A stretch of DNA of 64,000 nt from Desulfovibrio sp. (GTDB taxonomy: Bacteria; Desulfobacterota; Desulfovibrionia; Desulfovibrionales; Desulfovibrionaceae), in contig JACQYS010000031.1 of NCBI GenBank assembly GCA_016208105.1, positions 62,001 through 126,000 on the forward strand. The letters run 5' to 3'. Position 1 is the first letter of the stretch. The number at the start of each line of letters is the position of its first letter. This document shows positions 9,150 through 63,795 of the stretch, piece after piece. The notes under the pieces were generated by a model. That model was not told the DNA's origin, did no database searches, and was given only the letters and a program-made list of their open reading frames with translations. The translations under genes were made by a program, and so were the position numbers.

Positions 9150-10558
9150 TCCCCCGGCTGCTGGCTCCCGAAATCGGTATGGCCGCGCTGGCCCTGGTGT
9201 TCTTTCTGCAAGGCCTGGGGTTTGAGTCCTTGAAACGCCTGGGCGGTCTTTCAGTCTGGCTGGCCGCCGCAGTGACTGTTCTGGCCGCCGCGAGCCTTGA
9301 CGCGCGGGGCAGCCTGTTCTGGGATTGTTACGCGGTGGATTCCCTCTCGCAGTTTTTCAAGCTGGCCATAGCCTTCGGATTCGCGGTGGTCACGGCCATC
9401 GGGCCAAGGCCCGTGGACGTGGAGGAAGGGAAACGGCCCGATTACTTCATGCTCCTGGCCATCTCCTCCCTCGGGCTCATGCTCTTGGCTTCGGCCAAGG
9501 AACTGACCACCATGTACCTGGCCCTGGAACTGGCCTCCTTGAGCCTTTACGCCGTGGCCCCCCTGCGCGCCGAGAGCCGTCCAGCGGCAGAAGCCGCTGT
9601 GAAGTACATCCTTTACGGGGCCATGGTCACGGCACTATCTCTGTACGGTCTGTCGCTCATCATGGCCTCGCAGCACACCACCTATCTGCCGCAGCTTGCG
9701 GCCAAGCCCTGGAGCGTGGCCCAGTCTCCGCTGGCGGTGCTGGGGCTTGCGCTCTATCTGTGCGGGTTTCTCTTCAAACTGGCCCTGTTCCCGTTTCATT
9801 TCTGGTGCCCTGACGTCTATCAGGGCGTTGGCAACGAGACAGCAGCGTTCGTTTCCACCCTGCCCAAGCTTGGCGCGGTGGCGGTGCTCGTTCGCCTTGT
9901 GGGCGAACTGGGCATGAACTCTCAGACCGGTTCAGCCCTTGCTGTGCTGGCCGCGCTATCCATGACCGCGGGAAATCTCTCAGCCCTGGCTCAGAAGGAT
10001 TTGAAGCGTCTGCTCGGCTTTTCCAGCGTGTCCCATGCCGGCTACGCCGTGATGGGCCTGGTGGCGGCCGGACCCGAGGGGCTTGCGTCGGCCGCGTTTT
10101 ACGGGGTGTGCTATCTGCTAATGAATCTTGCGGCCTTTTTCGTGGTCTGCCGGATAGGCGCGGACGGATCCAATCCGACTCTTGCGAGTCTGGACGGCCT
10201 GTACAAACGGTCGCCGGGCCTGGCCTTTGTTCTTCTCGCGGCGGCCTTTTCCCTGGTGGGGTTGCCTCCCACGGCCGGGTTCGTGGGGAAGTTTTTCCTG
10301 CTGGGTTCGCTCTGGGGCAAGGGGCATGATTGGCTGGTGGTGGTGGCCGTGCTGAACACGGCAATCGCCATCTACTATTATCTCAACATGGTCAGGCACG
10401 CATACACAGTGGAACCCGGAGAGGCTACGCCGCTGGCGCTCAAATCCTTGAGGGGTATCCTAGGTGGCGGTTTGGCCGTGGCGCTTCTGCTGGTGGGCCT
10501 CCTGCCTGGATTTCTCTTCGGGTTGGCCCAGGCCGCAGCGGGTTTCGCGATCAGATAG
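9146..10558 (+). CDS. nuoN: NADH-quinone oxidoreductase subunit N
   Basis: A 470-aa antiporter-like subunit of the NuoN (ND2) type, which lies next to NuoK in the membrane arm. Visible residues are the TM5 glutamate (LALELASL, E129), the TM7 lysine before LFPFHFWCPDVYQG (K211, H218) and the TM8 lysine (TLPKLGAV, K241). The ATGA overlap with nuoM shows coupling. It is the last gene of the operon; no T-run terminator is obvious after it, although the following 300 bases are non-coding. Confidence 0.95.
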   Translation: MIPRLLAPEIGMAALALVFFLQGLGFESLKRLGGLSVWLAAAVTVLAAASLDARGSLFWDCYAVDSLSQFFKLAIAFGFAVVTAIGPRPVDVEEGKRPDYFMLLAISSLGLMLLASAKELTTMYLALELASLSLYAVAPLRAESRPAAEAAVKYILYGAMVTALSLYGLSLIMASQHTTYLPQLAAKPWSVAQSPLAVLGLALYLCGFLFKLALFPFHFWCPDVYQGVGNETAAFVSTLPKLGAVAVLVRLVGELGMNSQTGSALAVLAALSMTAGNLSALAQKDLKRLLGFSSVSHAGYAVMGLVAAGPEGLASAAFYGVCYLLMNLAAFFVVCRIGADGSNPTLASLDGLYKRSPGLAFVLLAAAFSLVGLPPTAGFVGKFFLLGSLWGKGHDWLVVVAVLNTAIAIYYYLNMVRHAYTVEPGEATPLALKSLRGILGGGLAVALLLVGLLPGFLFGLAQAAAGFAIR

Positions 10559-58023: not shown

Positions 58024-59988
58024 TCAGTTCTCCACGTCCAGGTTGTCCGGGGGCAGTCCCTGTCCGGGCTGCATCCGCTGTCCGGTCCAGACGGTTTCAT
58101 AGCCCCCCAAAGCCTCAACCTTGGCCTTGAAACTGTCGCTTTGGATCACATGGAGAAGCGCCTGGACGCGCGGTTCCTCTAGGCTCGTCAAGGGTAGCGC
58201 CAAGTCGTAACGTTCGCGGGCCAGGGGTACGAAGTCCAGGTCCAGGGCCTTGGCCGCGGCAAAAACGCCAAGCCCGCAATCCGCTCCACCGTTCTGCACG
58301 TTGGCGGCCACGCCCATGTGGGTCATCTCTTCCTGGGTGTAGCCCGTGACCTTTGTCGGGTCGATCCCGGCAATCTTGAGGTGGTAGTCCAACAGGATGC
58401 GTGTGCCCGCTCCGCGCTGGCGGTTGACGAAGCGTACGTCGCCTCTGGCCAGGCTGGAGACGTCCTGAATGTCTTTGGGGTTTCCTGGGGACACAATGAA
58501 CCCCTGGTGGCGGATGGCCAGGTTGATCACGGCCACGGCCATTCCCGGCAGATGTTTGTCCAGGAACGAGAAATTGAAGTCGCCGGTATCCGTGTCCAGC
58601 AGATGCGTACCCGCGATAAGGGCTGAACCCTGTGCCAGTGCGGCAAGACCGCCCAGGCTTCCCACGTGGCTGGAAGCCAGACGCATGGGGTTGTCCAGGC
58701 GCATGAGTTCATCCGCCAGAAGGTCCAGGGTGATGTCGTGGCTGCCCACCACCACCAGAGTGCGCTCCAACTCCTCCGGGGAGACCAGGAGTTCGGCCGT
58801 TACTTCTTCGCCCTTGGCCAGGCCTTCCTTGTCCGGCGGTATCTTGGCCACAGCCTGGGCCCGGGTGAGGGTGGTGATGAGCCCCGCACCGCGCGACAGG
58901 GGCAAGGCCGAGTAACCGTCTCCAACGCGTCCCACGGAAAGGCGCAAGAACTCTGTAAGTCCGGGCCTGGACGGGGCGTCCTTGGCCAGACGGACCCTGG
59001 CTGTGGGGCGCCGGGCGGGCTCTGCCCTGGTGAGCCAGGCGGCCAGCGGGGCCAGAAGCTCCTCGAAGCAGACAACGGCTGATACAGGATACCCTGGCGC
59101 ACCCACCAGGAGCTTCCCCTGGGCCACGCCCAGAAGCGAGGGCTTGCCAGGCATGGCCTGAATGCCGTGGACAACCACCTCGCCGAAGCGTTCCATGACA
59201 GCCCGGGTGAAGTCCTTGCTCCCAGCGGACGATCCGGCCACCAGTGTGATGATGTGAGCTGGCGAGTTCAGGGCTTCCTCAACGGATCTGGCCAGCGCGT
59301 CAAGGTTGTCCGGAACGGGCGGACGTCTGCGGGCATCAAGCCCCCAGCTTTGCGCCAAGGCGCAAAGCATCACGGAATTTGATTCCACCACCTGGCCCGG
59401 GCCCGGAGTGGGGTGGGTGGTGTAGTCGAGCACCTCGTCTCCGGTTGGGATCACGGACATGCGCACCCGCTCGTAGACTTCGACCTCCCATACCCCGCAG
59501 GAGAGAAGCGCTCCCAGATCGTAGGCAGTGAGTTTGCGGCGCCTTGGCAGAACCAGTTCCGTGGCCACGATGTCCTCGCCGATACGGCGGACATGGGTCC
59601 AGGGGGCCACTGGAGTTTCCAGGGTGGCCCGGCCCTGGTCGTCGAATACCACGTGTTCGATCATGACCACTGCGTCGAATCCCATGGGCAGCGGCTGGCC
59701 GGTGTTGACCATGGCGAAGTCAGTGTCCGGAGACAAAACGACCGGGCTGCCCTCCCGCGCGGAAAAAGTGGATTCCCCTTTCACGGCAATGCCGTCCATG
59801 GCCGCGCAATGGAAGGTGGGAGAGCTCAAGCGGGCCATGACCGGCTTGGCCGTTATCCTGCCCAGGCATTCCTCCACCGGAACGGACTCGACTCCCACCA
59901 GGGAGATGCGGTCCAAGGCGGCCTTGGCCAAGGCCAAAGCCTCGGGGATGGGCACCGTGCGGAGAAAGATGTTGCGCTTTACGTTCAT
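58024..59988 (-). CDS. MoeA-like molybdopterin protein fused to a PBP-like domain
   Basis: A 654-aa protein. Residues about 1-410 are a MoeA/molybdenum insertion domain (AMDGIAVKGES, VNTGQPLPMGFDAVVMIEHV, SVIPTGDEVL, VAGSSAGSKDFT, GAPGYPVSAVVC). Residues about 420-640 form a periplasmic-binding-like (LysR substrate/ModA-like) domain (VVVGSHDITLDLLADEL, GDVRFVNRQRGAGTRILLDYHL). Such fusions occur in Desulfovibrio and Clostridia and may sense or load molybdate or tungstate. It overlaps moeA by four bases. Confidence 0.88.
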   Translation of the reverse strand: MNVKRNIFLRTVPIPEALALAKAALDRISLVGVESVPVEECLGRITAKPVMARLSSPTFHCAAMDGIAVKGESTFSAREGSPVVLSPDTDFAMVNTGQPLPMGFDAVVMIEHVVFDDQGRATLETPVAPWTHVRRIGEDIVATELVLPRRRKLTAYDLGALLSCGVWEVEVYERVRMSVIPTGDEVLDYTTHPTPGPGQVVESNSVMLCALAQSWGLDARRRPPVPDNLDALARSVEEALNSPAHIITLVAGSSAGSKDFTRAVMERFGEVVVHGIQAMPGKPSLLGVAQGKLLVGAPGYPVSAVVCFEELLAPLAAWLTRAEPARRPTARVRLAKDAPSRPGLTEFLRLSVGRVGDGYSALPLSRGAGLITTLTRAQAVAKIPPDKEGLAKGEEVTAELLVSPEELERTLVVVGSHDITLDLLADELMRLDNPMRLASSHVGSLGGLAALAQGSALIAGTHLLDTDTGDFNFSFLDKHLPGMAVAVINLAIRHQGFIVSPGNPKDIQDVSSLARGDVRFVNRQRGAGTRILLDYHLKIAGIDPTKVTGYTQEEMTHMGVAANVQNGGADCGLGVFAAAKALDLDFVPLARERYDLALPLTSLEEPRVQALLHVIQSDSFKAKVEALGGYETVWTGQRMQPGQGLPPDNLDVEN

Positions 59989-61223
59989 AACAGCATCACC
60001 TGGATGGTTGTTCCGGCTTCCAGACCTTCCAGGTCGGCCGGAATTCTGGCCAGCCCCTGGGCCTGCACCAGGGTTTTTACGAGCCCCGATTTGCCGAGCA
60101 CCGGCACGGCTTCAGGGAGTCCGTTCCCGCTTGGGCGAAGGCTTACGCGCACGAAATCCTCCCGGCCTTGCCTGGACGCCACGTTTCGGGCGAGTCTGGC
60201 CTGGATCTGTGGGCGGGGACGGGAAAAGGCGGAGCCGTCTCCCGCCAGATGGGAAAGAAAGGGGCAGCCGAACACGAACATCACCACCTGGGCCGAGGCC
60301 ACCTGCCCGGGCAGGCCCCACACGGCCTTTCCGCCCGAACGGGCCAGGATGGTCGGTTTGCCGGGGCTTACGGCCAAGCCGTGAACCAGCACCTGGGTGT
60401 CGGGAAGCTGTGCGAGCGCCTCTATGGTCAGGTCGCGCACGCCCACCGAACTGCCGCCAGAGAGAAAAACCACGTCGGACACCGCCAGGGAGCGAGAAAG
60501 TGCGTCGGCAATGGCGGAAACATCGTCTCGGACAATGCCGAACTGCACCGGTTCTGCCCCGCACTGGGCGCACATGGCCGCCAGGGCCGGAGCGTTGGCG
60601 TCTCGTATCTGGCCTGGTTCCGGAGCATGCGAAACAGGCACCAGTTCGTCGCCGGTGGAGAGAATGGCGGCCACAGGGCGAACACCGACACGCACCTCCT
60701 GGATTCCCAGGGCGGCCAGAAGGCCGGTTTCAGCAGGACGAATGAGCGCGCCAGCGGCAAGAACCGGCTGTCCGGCGGTGGCGTCCTCGCCGGCGAGCAT
60801 CATGTTCTCGCCGGGTGCCACGGCCTTTCTGATCTCGATGGTGTCCGCCCCCAGGTCCTGGGTATGCTCAACCATGACGACAGCGTCCGCTCCCGGAGGC
60901 AGGCTGGACCCCGTAACCACCCTGAGGCATGTGCCAGGAGCCAGGGCGCTCTTGGAGACGGCGGTGATGTCCAAATCGCCGGCCATGTCCAGATAGGTGG
61001 GGTTGGTTTCGGTGGCACCGAAGCAGTCCGCTGCGCGCACGGCGAATCCGTCCATGCTGGAACGGGGCAGCTGGGGGAGGTTCTCGGGTGATGCCACGGC
61101 TTGGGCCAGAAAACGGCCAGACGCCGCGTGCAGAGGGACGGCTTCACTTCCAAGGGGTGGGAAACCCTGAAGAACGGTTTGGAAGGCCTGCGGGGAAATC
61201 AGTTCGAGATAGTCTTTTTCCAT
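59985..61223 (-). CDS. moeA: Molybdopterin molybdenumtransferase MoeA
   Basis: A 412-aa MoeA that inserts molybdenum (or tungsten) into adenylylated molybdopterin. Motifs: SSMDGFAVRAAD (about 55-66), TGSSLPPGADAVVMVEHTQ, ILSTGDELVPV, FLSGGSSVGVRDLT and WGLPGQVASAQ. It is three bases downstream of moaA and overlaps the fusion gene. The presence of two MoeA-type genes in tandem suggests metal-selective (Mo versus W) versions, an inference from known MoeA duplications. Confidence 0.94.
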   Translation of the reverse strand: MEKDYLELISPQAFQTVLQGFPPLGSEAVPLHAASGRFLAQAVASPENLPQLPRSSMDGFAVRAADCFGATETNPTYLDMAGDLDITAVSKSALAPGTCLRVVTGSSLPPGADAVVMVEHTQDLGADTIEIRKAVAPGENMMLAGEDATAGQPVLAAGALIRPAETGLLAALGIQEVRVGVRPVAAILSTGDELVPVSHAPEPGQIRDANAPALAAMCAQCGAEPVQFGIVRDDVSAIADALSRSLAVSDVVFLSGGSSVGVRDLTIEALAQLPDTQVLVHGLAVSPGKPTILARSGGKAVWGLPGQVASAQVVMFVFGCPFLSHLAGDGSAFSRPRPQIQARLARNVASRQGREDFVRVSLRPSGNGLPEAVPVLGKSGLVKTLVQAQGLARIPADLEGLEAGTTIQVMLL

Positions 61224-61226
61224 TGT

Positions 61227-62249
61227 CTATCCGCCAATGGCCGTCATGGGTTTGGCGCAGACCCCCCGGTTGCGTCGTTCCTGAAGGAGCTTGTGTCCCA
61301 TGGGTTTTCTGGCCAGGGCTCTTCTGAGCACCTCGAGGATCCGTTCGTCGGAGGTCTTGGCGGAGCGCAGCAGCGGGCGCAGCCGGTATTCTGTGTCGGA
61401 GTAGAGGCAGGTTCTCAGCCTGCCGTCGCAGGTCAGGCGAAGGCGGTTGCAGCTAAAGCAATAGTGCCCGGAAAGCCCGGAGATCACTCCCAGGCGGCCG
61501 TGACCGCCTGCGATGTTCCACATGCGGGCCGGGCCGTGCCCTTCGTCGCCGGGGACCACCGGGGTGAGTTCGGCCATTTGCTGCGCCTTCTCCAGTATGT
61601 CCGAGGCAGGCCAGTAGAGGCCGTCGTCCCAGAGGGTGTCGCCTCCGATGGGCATGAACTCGATGAAGCGCATGTCCAGGGGGTGTGTCCTGGCCAGGTC
61701 CAGGAATGCTGGAAGTTCGCTGTCGTTTAGTCCGCGCAGGGCAACGGCGTTCACCTTTACCCGAAGCCCGGCGTCCAGGCATTCGTCTATGGATTTACGG
61801 ACATCTCTGAAGAGGTCCGCGCCGGTTATGCGGAAAAACGTGGCGGGATCAAGCGAGTCCAGGGAGATGTTCACCGCCGTGAGCCCAAGGGCAGCCAGAG
61901 TTTTGGCTTGTCCCGGCAGCAGAGTGCCATTTGTTGTCAGGCGGACGTCCATGCCGGGCGCGATGCGCATCACCTCTTCGAGAAAGCGGTGGAAACCCCT
62001 GCGGGTCAAGGGTTCGCCACCCGTGAGGCGGAGTTTTGTCAGTCCTAGAGGGGCCGCCAGTCGGATCATCCGGAGGTATTCCTCGTAGGAGAGGATGTCC
62101 GAATGGGGGATGGCCTGGAAGTCCTTGATCGGGCGGCAGTAGAGGCAGCGCAGGTTGCACCTGTCGGTCACGCTCACCCTGAGGTAGTTGACCACGCGCC
62201 CGAACCCGTCGGCAAGGCGGCTTGAAAGTGGGTCAATATCCAAAGACAT
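61227..62249 (-). CDS. moaA: GTP 3',8-cyclase MoaA
   Basis: A 340-aa radical SAM enzyme that starts molybdopterin synthesis from GTP. N-terminal cluster CNLRCLYC (C31-C38 region), GGEPLTRRG, second cluster YCFSCNRLRLTCDGRLRTCL, and a C-terminal Gly-Gly (TAIGG) needed for activity in MoaA. No ribosome site precedes the ATG at 62249, though an AGGTTGAACCT inverted repeat lies in the 40-nt gap after moaD. Confidence 0.96.
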   Translation of the reverse strand: MSLDIDPLSSRLADGFGRVVNYLRVSVTDRCNLRCLYCRPIKDFQAIPHSDILSYEEYLRMIRLAAPLGLTKLRLTGGEPLTRRGFHRFLEEVMRIAPGMDVRLTTNGTLLPGQAKTLAALGLTAVNISLDSLDPATFFRITGADLFRDVRKSIDECLDAGLRVKVNAVALRGLNDSELPAFLDLARTHPLDMRFIEFMPIGGDTLWDDGLYWPASDILEKAQQMAELTPVVPGDEGHGPARMWNIAGGHGRLGVISGLSGHYCFSCNRLRLTCDGRLRTCLYSDTEYRLRPLLRSAKTSDERILEVLRRALARKPMGHKLLQERRNRGVCAKPMTAIGG

Positions 62250-62520: not shown

Positions 62521-62751
62521 CTACTTTACGACGTAACCCTTGGCTTTCATGCACTCGTCCAGGGCTTTTTGGCGGATGTCGTCGATGCTTTTTCCTTTGG
62601 GCGTTAGGGCCGCAGCCATTGCCGCCTGCCCCTGGCAGTCGTCGTAGTCGGCCCGGGTTTCGGCCGGGGATTTGTTGGTGTTCACCAACGTGGGCTGCCC
62701 GGAACAGGCGGCAAGCATGGAAACAAGCACCATCACGCTGACAACTCGCAT
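62521..62751 (-). CDS. Small predicted lipoprotein
   Basis: A 76-aa protein with a lipoprotein signal (MRVVSVMVLVSMLAAC, lipobox LAAC) and a short mature part with two further cysteines (YDDCQGQ, LDECMKAKGY). The ATG at 62751 is chosen because GGAGG ends five bases upstream. It is the first gene before moaD, probably in the same transcript. No function is recognised. Confidence 0.75.
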   Translation of the reverse strand: MRVVSVMVLVSMLAACSGQPTLVNTNKSPAETRADYDDCQGQAAMAAALTPKGKSIDDIRQKALDECMKAKGYVVK

Positions 62752-62801
62752 ACATCCCTCCGTCTTGACAGGTGAAGCCCACAATGACTAAACCCTAAGC
62801 C

Positions 62802-62891
62802 ATGCGCAAGCCCCAAGCCCGTCCCTTTTCCTGCTATTATTATTCCTACGGATTCCGCATTCGCGGGACGTGGCCGGGCGAACAATCGTAG
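62802..62891 (+). CDS. Tyrosine-rich attenuator leader peptide
   Basis: A 29-codon frame starts with ATG at 62802 and ends with TAG at 62889-62891. Codons 12-16 read Tyr-Tyr-Tyr-Ser-Tyr, flanked by Phe at codons 9 and 18 and a Trp at codon 24. It lies 27 bases before a strong intrinsic terminator and 106 bases before the ADTH synthase gene, an aromatic pathway gene. This is the layout of a ribosome-mediated attenuator sensing mainly tyrosine. Its own ribosome site is weak. Confidence 0.78.
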
Positions 62892-62918
62892 GAACAAACC
62901 GCAAAGCGCCCTTTCCAC

Positions 62919-62952
62919 GGGGCCGCGAACCAGGCGTTCGCGGCCCCTTTTT
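62919..62952 (+). promoter_or_regulatory. Attenuator terminator upstream of ADTH synthase
   Basis: Arms GGGGCCGCGAAC (62919-62930) and GTTCGCGGCCCC (62936-62947) form a perfect 12-bp stem followed by TTTTTC. TTCGCGG (62860-62866), inside the leader peptide just after the Tyr codons, can pair with CCGCGAA (62923-62929) and so destroy the terminator stem. A ribosome stalled on the Tyr codons would leave TTCGCGG free (antitermination); one that reaches the stop codon would hide it. Confidence 0.82.
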
Positions 62953-62997
62953 CATGCCGGGAGCGCCATCACCCCGGGAAGGAGCAAGGAGGACCCC

Positions 62998-63795
62998 ATG
63001 CACATCGGAAAGACCATCCGCCTCGAGCGCATCGTCAACAGAGACACGGGCCGTGCCATCATTGTCCCCCTGGATCACGGAGTGACGGTGGGCCCCATCG
63101 ACGGCATCATCGACATGCGCGACACCGTCACGCGAATCGTGGAGGGCGGGGCCAACGCCGTACTCATGCACAAGGGGGTTGTGCCCTGCGGACACAGGGC
63201 CAGAGGCCGGGACATCGGCCTTATTGTTCATCTTTCGGCTTCCACGGTGCTTTCGCCATTCCCGGGAGTGAAAACTCTGGTCTGCGAGGTGGAAGAGGCT
63301 ATCCAATTGGGAGCGGACGCAGTGAGCTTGCATCTCAACCTGGGCGACGAGTCCGAGCGGACAATGCTTGCGGACATGGGACGCATCACCCGCGAAGCCG
63401 CCCGGTGGGGTGTCCCTGTACTGGCAATGGTCTACGGGCGCGGCCCAAAGATATCCAGCGAGTTCGACCCGGCCGTGGTGGCCCATTGCGCACGCGTGGG
63501 CATGGAGCTGGGAGCGGACATCGTGAAAGTTCCCTACACGGGGGACCCCGAGTCCTTTGCTACAGTGGTGGCCGGAGCCAGGGTGCCGGTGGTCATTGCC
63601 GGTGGGCCTAAAACCCCCACAACGAGGGATTTTCTGCGCATGGTGTTCGATTCTGTCCAGGCCGGTGGCTCAGGGCTTTCTGTCGGGCGCAACATCTTCC
63701 AGCACAAGGACCCCACCAGGCTCCTGCAGGCCTTGGGCAAGGTGGTCCACGACGGCTGGAGCGTGGACGAGGCCATGGAAGGTTTGGGAGAGTAG
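62998..63795 (+). CDS. 2-amino-3,7-dideoxy-D-threo-hept-6-ulosonate (ADTH) synthase
   Basis: A 265-aa class I aldolase of the DeoC/LacD-like superfamily. [19 protein letters not shown] near residues 21-39, the Schiff-base region VKVPYTGDP (about 180) and [13 protein letters not shown] match archaeal-type ADTH synthase (AroA'). It makes the precursor of 3-dehydroquinate in the alternative route used by methanogens and Desulfovibrio. Fructose-bisphosphate aldolase class I is the alternative. The usual partner (3-dehydroquinate synthase II) is not adjacent. AAGGAGG lies five bases before the ATG. The leader attenuator supports the aromatic pathway. Confidence 0.85.

Follow-up and report, generated by a model that had tools for sequence, protein, structure and literature searches.

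The region 62765–62952 of the window (the whole 64-kb stretch of DNA analysed here) appears to be a ribosome-mediated attenuator through which charged tRNA-Tyr governs expression of the stand-alone ADTH synthase isozyme encoded directly behind it (62998–63795), a reading to which we give a probability of about 0.87. From its anatomy, conservation, covariation and codon partition, as shown by the sequence and by comparison with homologues, the element would work as follows. Transcription would begin at, or within about a base of, the AUG of a short leader frame. With ample Tyr-tRNA, the translating ribosome would reach the stop codon and cover segment 2 of the leader RNA, the terminator would form and transcription would end before the gene. 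With scarce Tyr-tRNA, the ribosome would stall at the Tyr codons 12–16, and the free segment 2 would pair with segment 3 in a 17-bp antiterminator, so that the gene is transcribed. The codons Phe-18 and Trp-24 would come too late to free the whole arm, and if the leader is not translated at all, a protector hairpin between segments 1 and 2 may favour termination. Ribosome-mediated attenuation is itself a known mechanism.

As the original prediction held, the downstream gene encodes ADTH (2-amino-3,7-dideoxy-D-threo-hept-6-ulosonate) synthase, the first enzyme of the alternative (non-DAHP) aromatic route, and its match to the TIGR01949 family lies well above the cut-off (see the table). A solved relative of the enzyme is MJ0400 (E 2.7e-92), and the nearest named relative by the window protein is Fundidesulfovibrio agrisoli SG106, at 91%, which makes Fundidesulfovibrio the probable genus of the window. 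Both neighbours of the gene are on the minus strand, namely a frame at 62521–62784 without any family match before it and a LysM frame after it. The same genome possesses a second ADTH synthase, 70% identical to the window copy, that heads an aromatic operon and is followed by frames which we take to be 3-dehydroquinate synthase II and chorismate mutase/prephenate dehydratase (pheA-like). This operon copy has an attenuator of its own, with the leader MQSPNFTAGFYFWFYFWFSRASGIGRGAR, which carries Phe, Tyr and Trp codons, and a terminator.

Table 1. Features of the putative attenuator and of the gene behind it (positions in the window)
Feature	Position	Strand	Basis and remarks
-35 box TTGACA of the attenuator promoter	62765..62770	+	37 nt before the leader ATG; conserved
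Weak -10 element TAAACC, 18-nt spacer	62789..62794	+	conserved TA; start predicted at or near 62801/62802
Leader peptide frame (ATG...TAG, 29 codons)	62802..62891	+	sequence; Tyr leaders in the same clade
Segment 1 (possible protector)	62810..62825	+	minimum-energy fold of the whole leader; shuffle p = 0.06
Regulatory Tyr-Tyr-Tyr-Ser-Tyr codons	62835..62849	+	sole site of the window with at least 4 Tyr in 5 codons
Segment 2, antiterminator 5' side (helices I, II, III)	62860..62880	+	predicted fold
Segment 3, antiterminator 3' side	62907..62929	+	predicted fold; overlaps the terminator 5' arm
Intrinsic terminator, 12-bp stem 62919–62930/62936–62947 and T-run	62919..62952	+	sequence, scan
Shine-Dalgarno AGGAGG of the ADTH synthase gene	62987..62992	+	sequence
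Stand-alone ADTH synthase	62998..63795	+	TIGR01949, 372.5 bits, cut-off 299.45

A 29-codon frame with a Tyr-Tyr-Tyr-Ser-Tyr run, two Phe codons and one Trp codon, followed by a perfect 12-bp terminator with a T-run, had been described for this site, and all of these parts are present. The Tyr codons occupy 62835–62843 and 62847–62849, the Phe codons begin at 62826 and 62853, and the Trp codon at 62871; the terminator (62919–62947) consists of 12 Watson-Crick pairs around a 5-nt loop and is followed by TTTTT at 62948–62952. The same description included a 7-nt segment behind the Tyr codons that matches the 5' arm of the terminator. The match is indeed an exact complement (TTCGCGG at 62860–62866 against CCGCGAA at 62923–62929) but understates the antiterminator, of which it is the outer helix: the predicted fold comprises 17 pairs in three helices (helix I, 62860–62866 with 62923–62929; helix II, 62869–62873 with 62915–62919; helix III, 62876–62880 with 62907–62911).

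The position of the Tyr codons fits this fold. If the ribosome is taken to cover 13 nt counted from the first base of the A-site codon, with Tyr-16 in the A-site the uncovered RNA starts at 62860, precisely where the arm begins. The arm is likewise exposed when any of the other three Tyr codons, or Phe-9, occupies the A-site; a stall at Phe-18 masks its first six bases, and one at Trp-24 all three 5' sides. The modelled geometry agrees with the proposal that stalling at the Tyr codons frees the antiterminator segment, with a predicted fold energy, before the terminator 3' arm exists, of −29.4 kcal/mol for the Tyr-16 stall versus −10.2 kcal/mol with the ribosome at the stop codon. Throughout the clade of the window copy, the mean paired probability of the terminator 5' arm differs little between the two states (in the window, 0.69 stalled versus 0.62 at the stop), since the arm can also be sequestered by a small local hairpin once the ribosome has reached the stop codon; this measure was therefore dropped as a marker of state in the clade, in which the states are told apart by energy and pairing partner only. 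Family-wide, the paired probability reaches 0.6 or more in 116 of 118 stalled states versus 14 of 118 stop states. With no ribosome on the leader, the predicted fold pairs 62817–62825 and 62810–62813 with 62865–62874 and 62876–62879, which suggests a protector pairing of segments 1 and 2; in the shuffle test this pairing reaches p ≤ 0.05 in 62 of 118 leaders of the family, and 0.06 in the window.

The same geometry bears on the possibility that the attenuator senses the general aromatic pool (Phe and Tyr, or slow translation as such) and not Tyr specifically. A stall at Phe-9 would also free the arm, more Phe and Trp codons follow downstream, and five of the eight scored leaders of the clade have a usable Phe codon (two each in L054 and L055); moreover, the Phe-Tyr-Phe leader of Corynebacterium glutamicum aroF responds to Phe and not to Tyr, according to the accessible text of PMC11802643. 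However, Tyr accounts for 29 of the 36 stall-competent codons of those eight leaders and Trp for none, and three leaders (L048, L049 and L052) lack the upstream Phe codon but keep the Tyr run, so that we regard general aromatic sensing as unlikely and retain charged tRNA-Tyr as the proposed signal. Searches with Rfam covariance models, T-box and amino-acid leaders included, returned 0 matches at the gathering score over the window and only four weak matches, each below that score, on seven loci bearing such leaders; identity with a T-box, a riboswitch or a known leader was rejected on these grounds.

By pattern and conservation, a promoter appears to be present upstream of the leader. Of 120 called leaders, 93 have a TTGACA box (at least five of six letters) situated 28–49 nt upstream of their ATG, with 91 of these boxes falling at 35–40 nt and 84 being perfect, versus 13 of 120 when the search is anchored on the enzyme start instead; the 120 include one probably spurious leader (L100), which is among the 93. 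Within the anchored set (90 leaders), conservation resumes after TTGACA with TA at +24/+25 (T in 70/90, A in 76/90). A C immediately precedes the start codon of 74 of the 90 leaders that have the promoter versus 13 of the 29 that do not, and Shine-Dalgarno-like letters are found before 12 of the 90 promoter leaders, 13 of the 29 other leaders and 106 of 119 ADTH synthase genes. The spacing of TTGACA, the conserved TA and the C before the ATG together point to a transcript start at or near the leader AUG, and the scarcity of Shine-Dalgarno-like letters before these leaders agrees with leaderless initiation. We infer that the Tyr-run leader is translated, probably from a leaderless mRNA whose start is placed by promoter spacing. 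A generic promoter scan of the window found none. Transcription starting downstream of 62950 would have told against attenuation, and the upstream TTGACA argues, if not conclusively, against such a start.

A start at or near the AUG would yield a separate leaderless RNA, about 150 nt long, with its 3' end at the terminator, and the trp leader RNA of Sinorhizobium provides a precedent for action in trans. That the short terminated transcript additionally works in trans in this case, as a small RNA or as a peptide, seems to us distinctly improbable, the conservation being accounted for by pairing in cis.

This cis pairing was followed through an alignment of 119 homologous leaders, chosen independently of the pairing between segments 2 and 3. 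The original prediction looked to aligned relatives for conserved Tyr/Phe codons and covarying stems; the Tyr run occurs in 10 of 10 collected clade members, and the competing pairing is kept and covaries across the 119 homologues. A loss of both from related genomes, which would have told against attenuation, is thus not seen at the level of sequence. In the helix between segments 2 and 3, 88.5% of cells are paired versus 33–46% when the segments are slid against each other, and two-sided changes number 64 versus 26.1 in shuffles. At its variable position, the terminator 5' arm makes a standard pair with the leader arm (T-A, C-G, A-T or T-G) in 113 of 119 homologues, against only 39 of 119 in which it so pairs with the 3' arm of the terminator itself. 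The 5' arm is therefore matched to the leader, which is the behaviour expected of an antiterminator. Among six same-genus sequences, the 17 antiterminator pairs hold in 93% of cells versus 37–54% when slid; these close sequences contain three two-sided changes, a covariation equalled by two of the slid controls.

The fit between leader and terminator was also tested for individual homologues. In a swap test, binding to the own 5' arm was stronger than the average over the other 5' arms for 112 of 119 leader arms; the own arm ranked in the best quarter for 78 leaders and in the worse half for 20 of 119, which include both Tyr leaders of clade T2. In a duplex test against shuffled leaders, 91 of 119 homologues family-wide reached p 0.01; the window gave p = 0.04 and four same-genus relatives gave 0.055–0.285. 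As a separate observation, the inner terminator pair at columns 239/258 of alignment A2 is mismatched in 80 of 119 homologues, mostly as A-G or G-G. The need for the 5' arm to fit the leader apparently maintains this mismatch, which may weaken the terminator.

Outside this setting, terminators and aromatic leaders seldom occur together. The Tyr-Tyr-Tyr-Ser-Tyr run is unique at its density in all six frames of the window (Table 1), and only 3 of 848 window slices of 450 nt contain a terminator with an upstream frame in which 10 codons include five or more Phe, Tyr or Trp. Two of these three slices overlap the attenuator; the third, at 10051, falls within a 470-codon frame, presumably nuoN, and was rejected as a second attenuator because it lies inside that long coding frame. 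For the wider comparison we collected 174 matches to ADTH synthase (identity of 53% or more, over 200 residues) from the same genome, its relatives and named contigs, with 162 distinct upstream regions. A terminator was found by scan in 126 of these 162 regions, and in 116 of them together with an aromatic frame as defined above, versus 0 of 324 two-letter-block shuffles; the shuffles of upstream regions and the window slices rule out a chance leader. The codons of the leaders are also distinctive, TTT and TAT making up 55 of 74 Phe and Tyr codons in 12 same-genus leaders versus 4 of 102 in their ADTH synthase genes. Although similar terminators exist elsewhere in the genome, it is hardly credible that 62919–62952 is the ordinary terminator of another transcript beside a chance, untranslated frame, since the long upstream frames (58024–62249) and the frame at 62521–62784 are on the opposite, minus strand, for which reason a terminator of the upstream gene was rejected, while both parts recur together in homologous upstream regions as counted above, their pairing covaries and the leader codons are unlike those of the genes.

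Attenuators sensing different amino acids appear to be distributed among the copies of ADTH synthase. In a tree of 161 enzymes, the window copy belongs to a clade of 10 rows (SH-aLRT 96), none of which is followed by operon genes. All 10 collected rows have a Tyr run (at least three Tyr within six codons), to which the outer L054 and L055 add Phe; the terminator was found by scan in nine and by eye in the tenth (L053). In a second stand-alone clade, of eight rows (SH-aLRT 97), the leaders carry Phe runs and lack usable codons for Tyr and Trp. Three further rows are Phe-rich (SH-aLRT 93), and the leaders of a five-row clade (SH-aLRT 94) are of the Tyr or Tyr/Phe type, apart from one row (L056) for which none was called. 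Among the upstream regions lacking one of the two parts are those of an entire clade of nine rows, in which no aromatic leader is present, and those of seven stand-alone f5 copies, in which the scan gave no terminator.

Operon and stand-alone leaders differ in tryptophan. Among 24 genomes with both kinds of leader called (G049, whose stand-alone leader was not called, is left out), Trp occurs in the 14-codon core of 24/24 operon leaders versus 3/24 stand-alone leaders of the same genomes, and by stall geometry none of the 22 stand-alone leaders scored in these clades offers a usable Trp codon; taking all contexts together, 81 of 90 operon leaders have Trp in their core, versus 5 of 25 stand-alone leaders. 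Since the operon copy has its own Phe/Tyr/Trp attenuator, the ADTH synthase copies would answer to different amino acids. Where the stand-alone copy is a Tyr copy from the window clade (n = 10), the operon core has a median share of Tyr among Phe and Tyr of 0.21; the median is 0.40 with a copy from the five-row clade (n = 5), 0.55 with a Phe copy (n = 10) and 0.43 in 65 others. The Mann-Whitney value of 0.00055 for window-clade neighbours versus neighbours of Phe copies is too small because the rows are related by descent, and we judge that only about three independent groups stand behind the shift. We consider it rather probable that these elements form a leaderless attenuator family which, in the class of this genome, governs entry into the non-DAHP aromatic route, with codons split among duplicated ADTH synthases (Tyr-run, Phe-run and mixed), in which the operon leader loses the codons that are sensed by the stand-alone copy.

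Several further arrangements were seen among the collected matches. Tandem ADTH synthase pairs head the aromatic operon in L124, L137, L109, L141, L127 and L019, with leader and terminator called for the first copy only. In a Spirochaetota contig (L030), an extreme aromatic frame, LYYFYYFFFFYFWFYYYG, lies about 285–140 nt upstream of an ADTH synthase together with hairpin arms and a T-run, the hairpin not being scored by the terminator scan. A Sumerlaeota contig (L013), outside the phylum, encodes an ADTH synthase 65% identical to that of the window, with an aromatic leader and CCTGCGG/CCGCAGG arms; this is either a transfer or a misbinned contig.

The element extends beyond ADTH synthase. Of 149 genomes in a sample of the class, 144 contain a match (E ≤ 1e-9) to a covariance model built from 91 rows; in a sample of the phylum, 22 of 99 genomes contain one at E ≤ 1e-6, three of which belong to the class. 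We inspected 20 further model matches, picked from the matches listed. Phe-run leaders with the same type of terminator precede genes of the sodium/solute symporter family in L186–L188, L190 and L193, with a Phe/Tyr leader in L189. Trp leaders precede trpE-like genes (L191, L194) and, weakly, a TrpB-like gene (L197), and these Trp leaders at trp-like genes provide an independent check on the codon reading. Trp-rich leaders, NWWRFW and CWWLW, stand before DctP-type TRAP solute-binding genes (L196, L198), and a Phe/Tyr leader precedes a prephenate dehydratase-like (pheA-like) gene in a genome without any ADTH synthase match (L195); the genes behind the Trp leaders of L192 and L200 were not assigned. 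No aromatic leader was found at the model matches L199 and L201–L205; two of these, the weaker matches L203 and L204 of the genome under study, were rejected as attenuators, being terminators without an aromatic leader, and GGGCCGC-type terminators without aromatic leaders occur elsewhere in that genome. NCBIfam models were applied to six of the downstream genes: the symporter of L187, the TRAP gene of L196 and the TrpB-like gene of L197 pass the curated cut-off, the two trpE-like and the prephenate dehydratase-like genes are best matches below the cut-offs, and the remaining downstream genes were named by likeness. The Phe-run leaders suggest that the symporter family member is an aromatic amino acid importer, and the Trp-rich leaders suggest TRAP uptake of Trp or a related compound.

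In the phylum sample, six of 15 inspected matches have aromatic leaders: two before DAHP synthase-like genes (L213, and L216 with Trp), one before an ADTH synthase-like gene (L217) and three before genes that were not assigned (L208, L209, L214). The other nine have no aromatic leader, but at least two of them have frames rich in other amino acids. A Leu-rich frame precedes a leuA-like gene at L210 312–446 (reverse complement), and VISLVLIVV, rich in Ile, Leu and Val, precedes an acetolactate synthase-like gene at L212 338–454, the genes of this sample being named by likeness. These two are probably attenuators of branched-chain pathways, and since their frames are rich in other amino acids, the model also catches, outside the class, attenuators of other pathways.

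Like the window element, the enterobacterial attenuators trpL and pheL (described in PMC11802643, accessible text) combine a leader peptide that carries cognate codons with an antiterminator and a terminator that exclude each other, and with a possible protector; unlike them, the window element has Tyr codons, an ADTH synthase target, no Shine-Dalgarno sequence before the leader and no Rfam match. The aroR-aroF (DAHP synthase) system of C. glutamicum likewise places an attenuator with Phe and Tyr codons before the first aromatic enzyme but differs in its response to Phe, in the enzyme and in the phylum (same source and extent). Leaderless leader peptides of Actinobacteria, such as trpL1 and leuL2 of Streptomyces lividans, start at the 5' end of the transcript, as is predicted for the window leader, as far as the accessible text of PMC8079986 goes. 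They differ in lineage and in the amino acids, and the start in the window is placed by promoter spacing only. Tyrosine T-box leaders would likewise sense the charging of tRNA-Tyr, whereas in the window a translated leader would be the sensor and no T-box match is found. T-boxes for Tyr are named in the accessible part of a 2005 survey by Seliverstov (PMC1262725). The E. coli DAHP synthases AroF, AroG and AroH are copies of a first enzyme that answer to different aromatic amino acids, as is proposed for the ADTH synthases. They are also under allosteric control. E. coli aroF and aroH are repressed by TyrR and TrpR, respectively (PMC11802643, accessible text); unlike that of the E. coli isozymes, the partition among ADTH synthases would be written in leader codons.

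The accessible text of Rodionov 2004 (PMC545781) and Naville 2010 (PMC2965389) lists no aromatic attenuator for Desulfovibrio, and none of the papers listed by the literature searches, PMC1262725, PMC11802643, PMC8079986 and PMC4046766 among them, deals with Desulfovibrio leaders to judge by its title or the opening of its abstract. In that literature, from which subscription papers were mostly absent, we found no printed Tyr-sensing leader-peptide attenuator, the closest being aroR-aroF of C. glutamicum, in line with the original prediction, which knew of no described Tyr attenuator for the ADTH route in Desulfobacterota. Nor did the search turn up a counterpart for subfunctionalisation of a feedback signal through re-coding of leader peptides with a Tyr-sensing member.

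If the proposed reading is true, the element would be the first Tyr-specific ribosome-mediated attenuator known to us, and it would offer an explanation of how the first step of aromatic biosynthesis may be adjusted in bacteria that use the ADTH route. Similar elements before sodium/solute symporter and TRAP genes suggest substrates for these transporters. In the ADTH synthase family, it would show how gene duplication can lead to the division of a feedback signal by means of leader codons.
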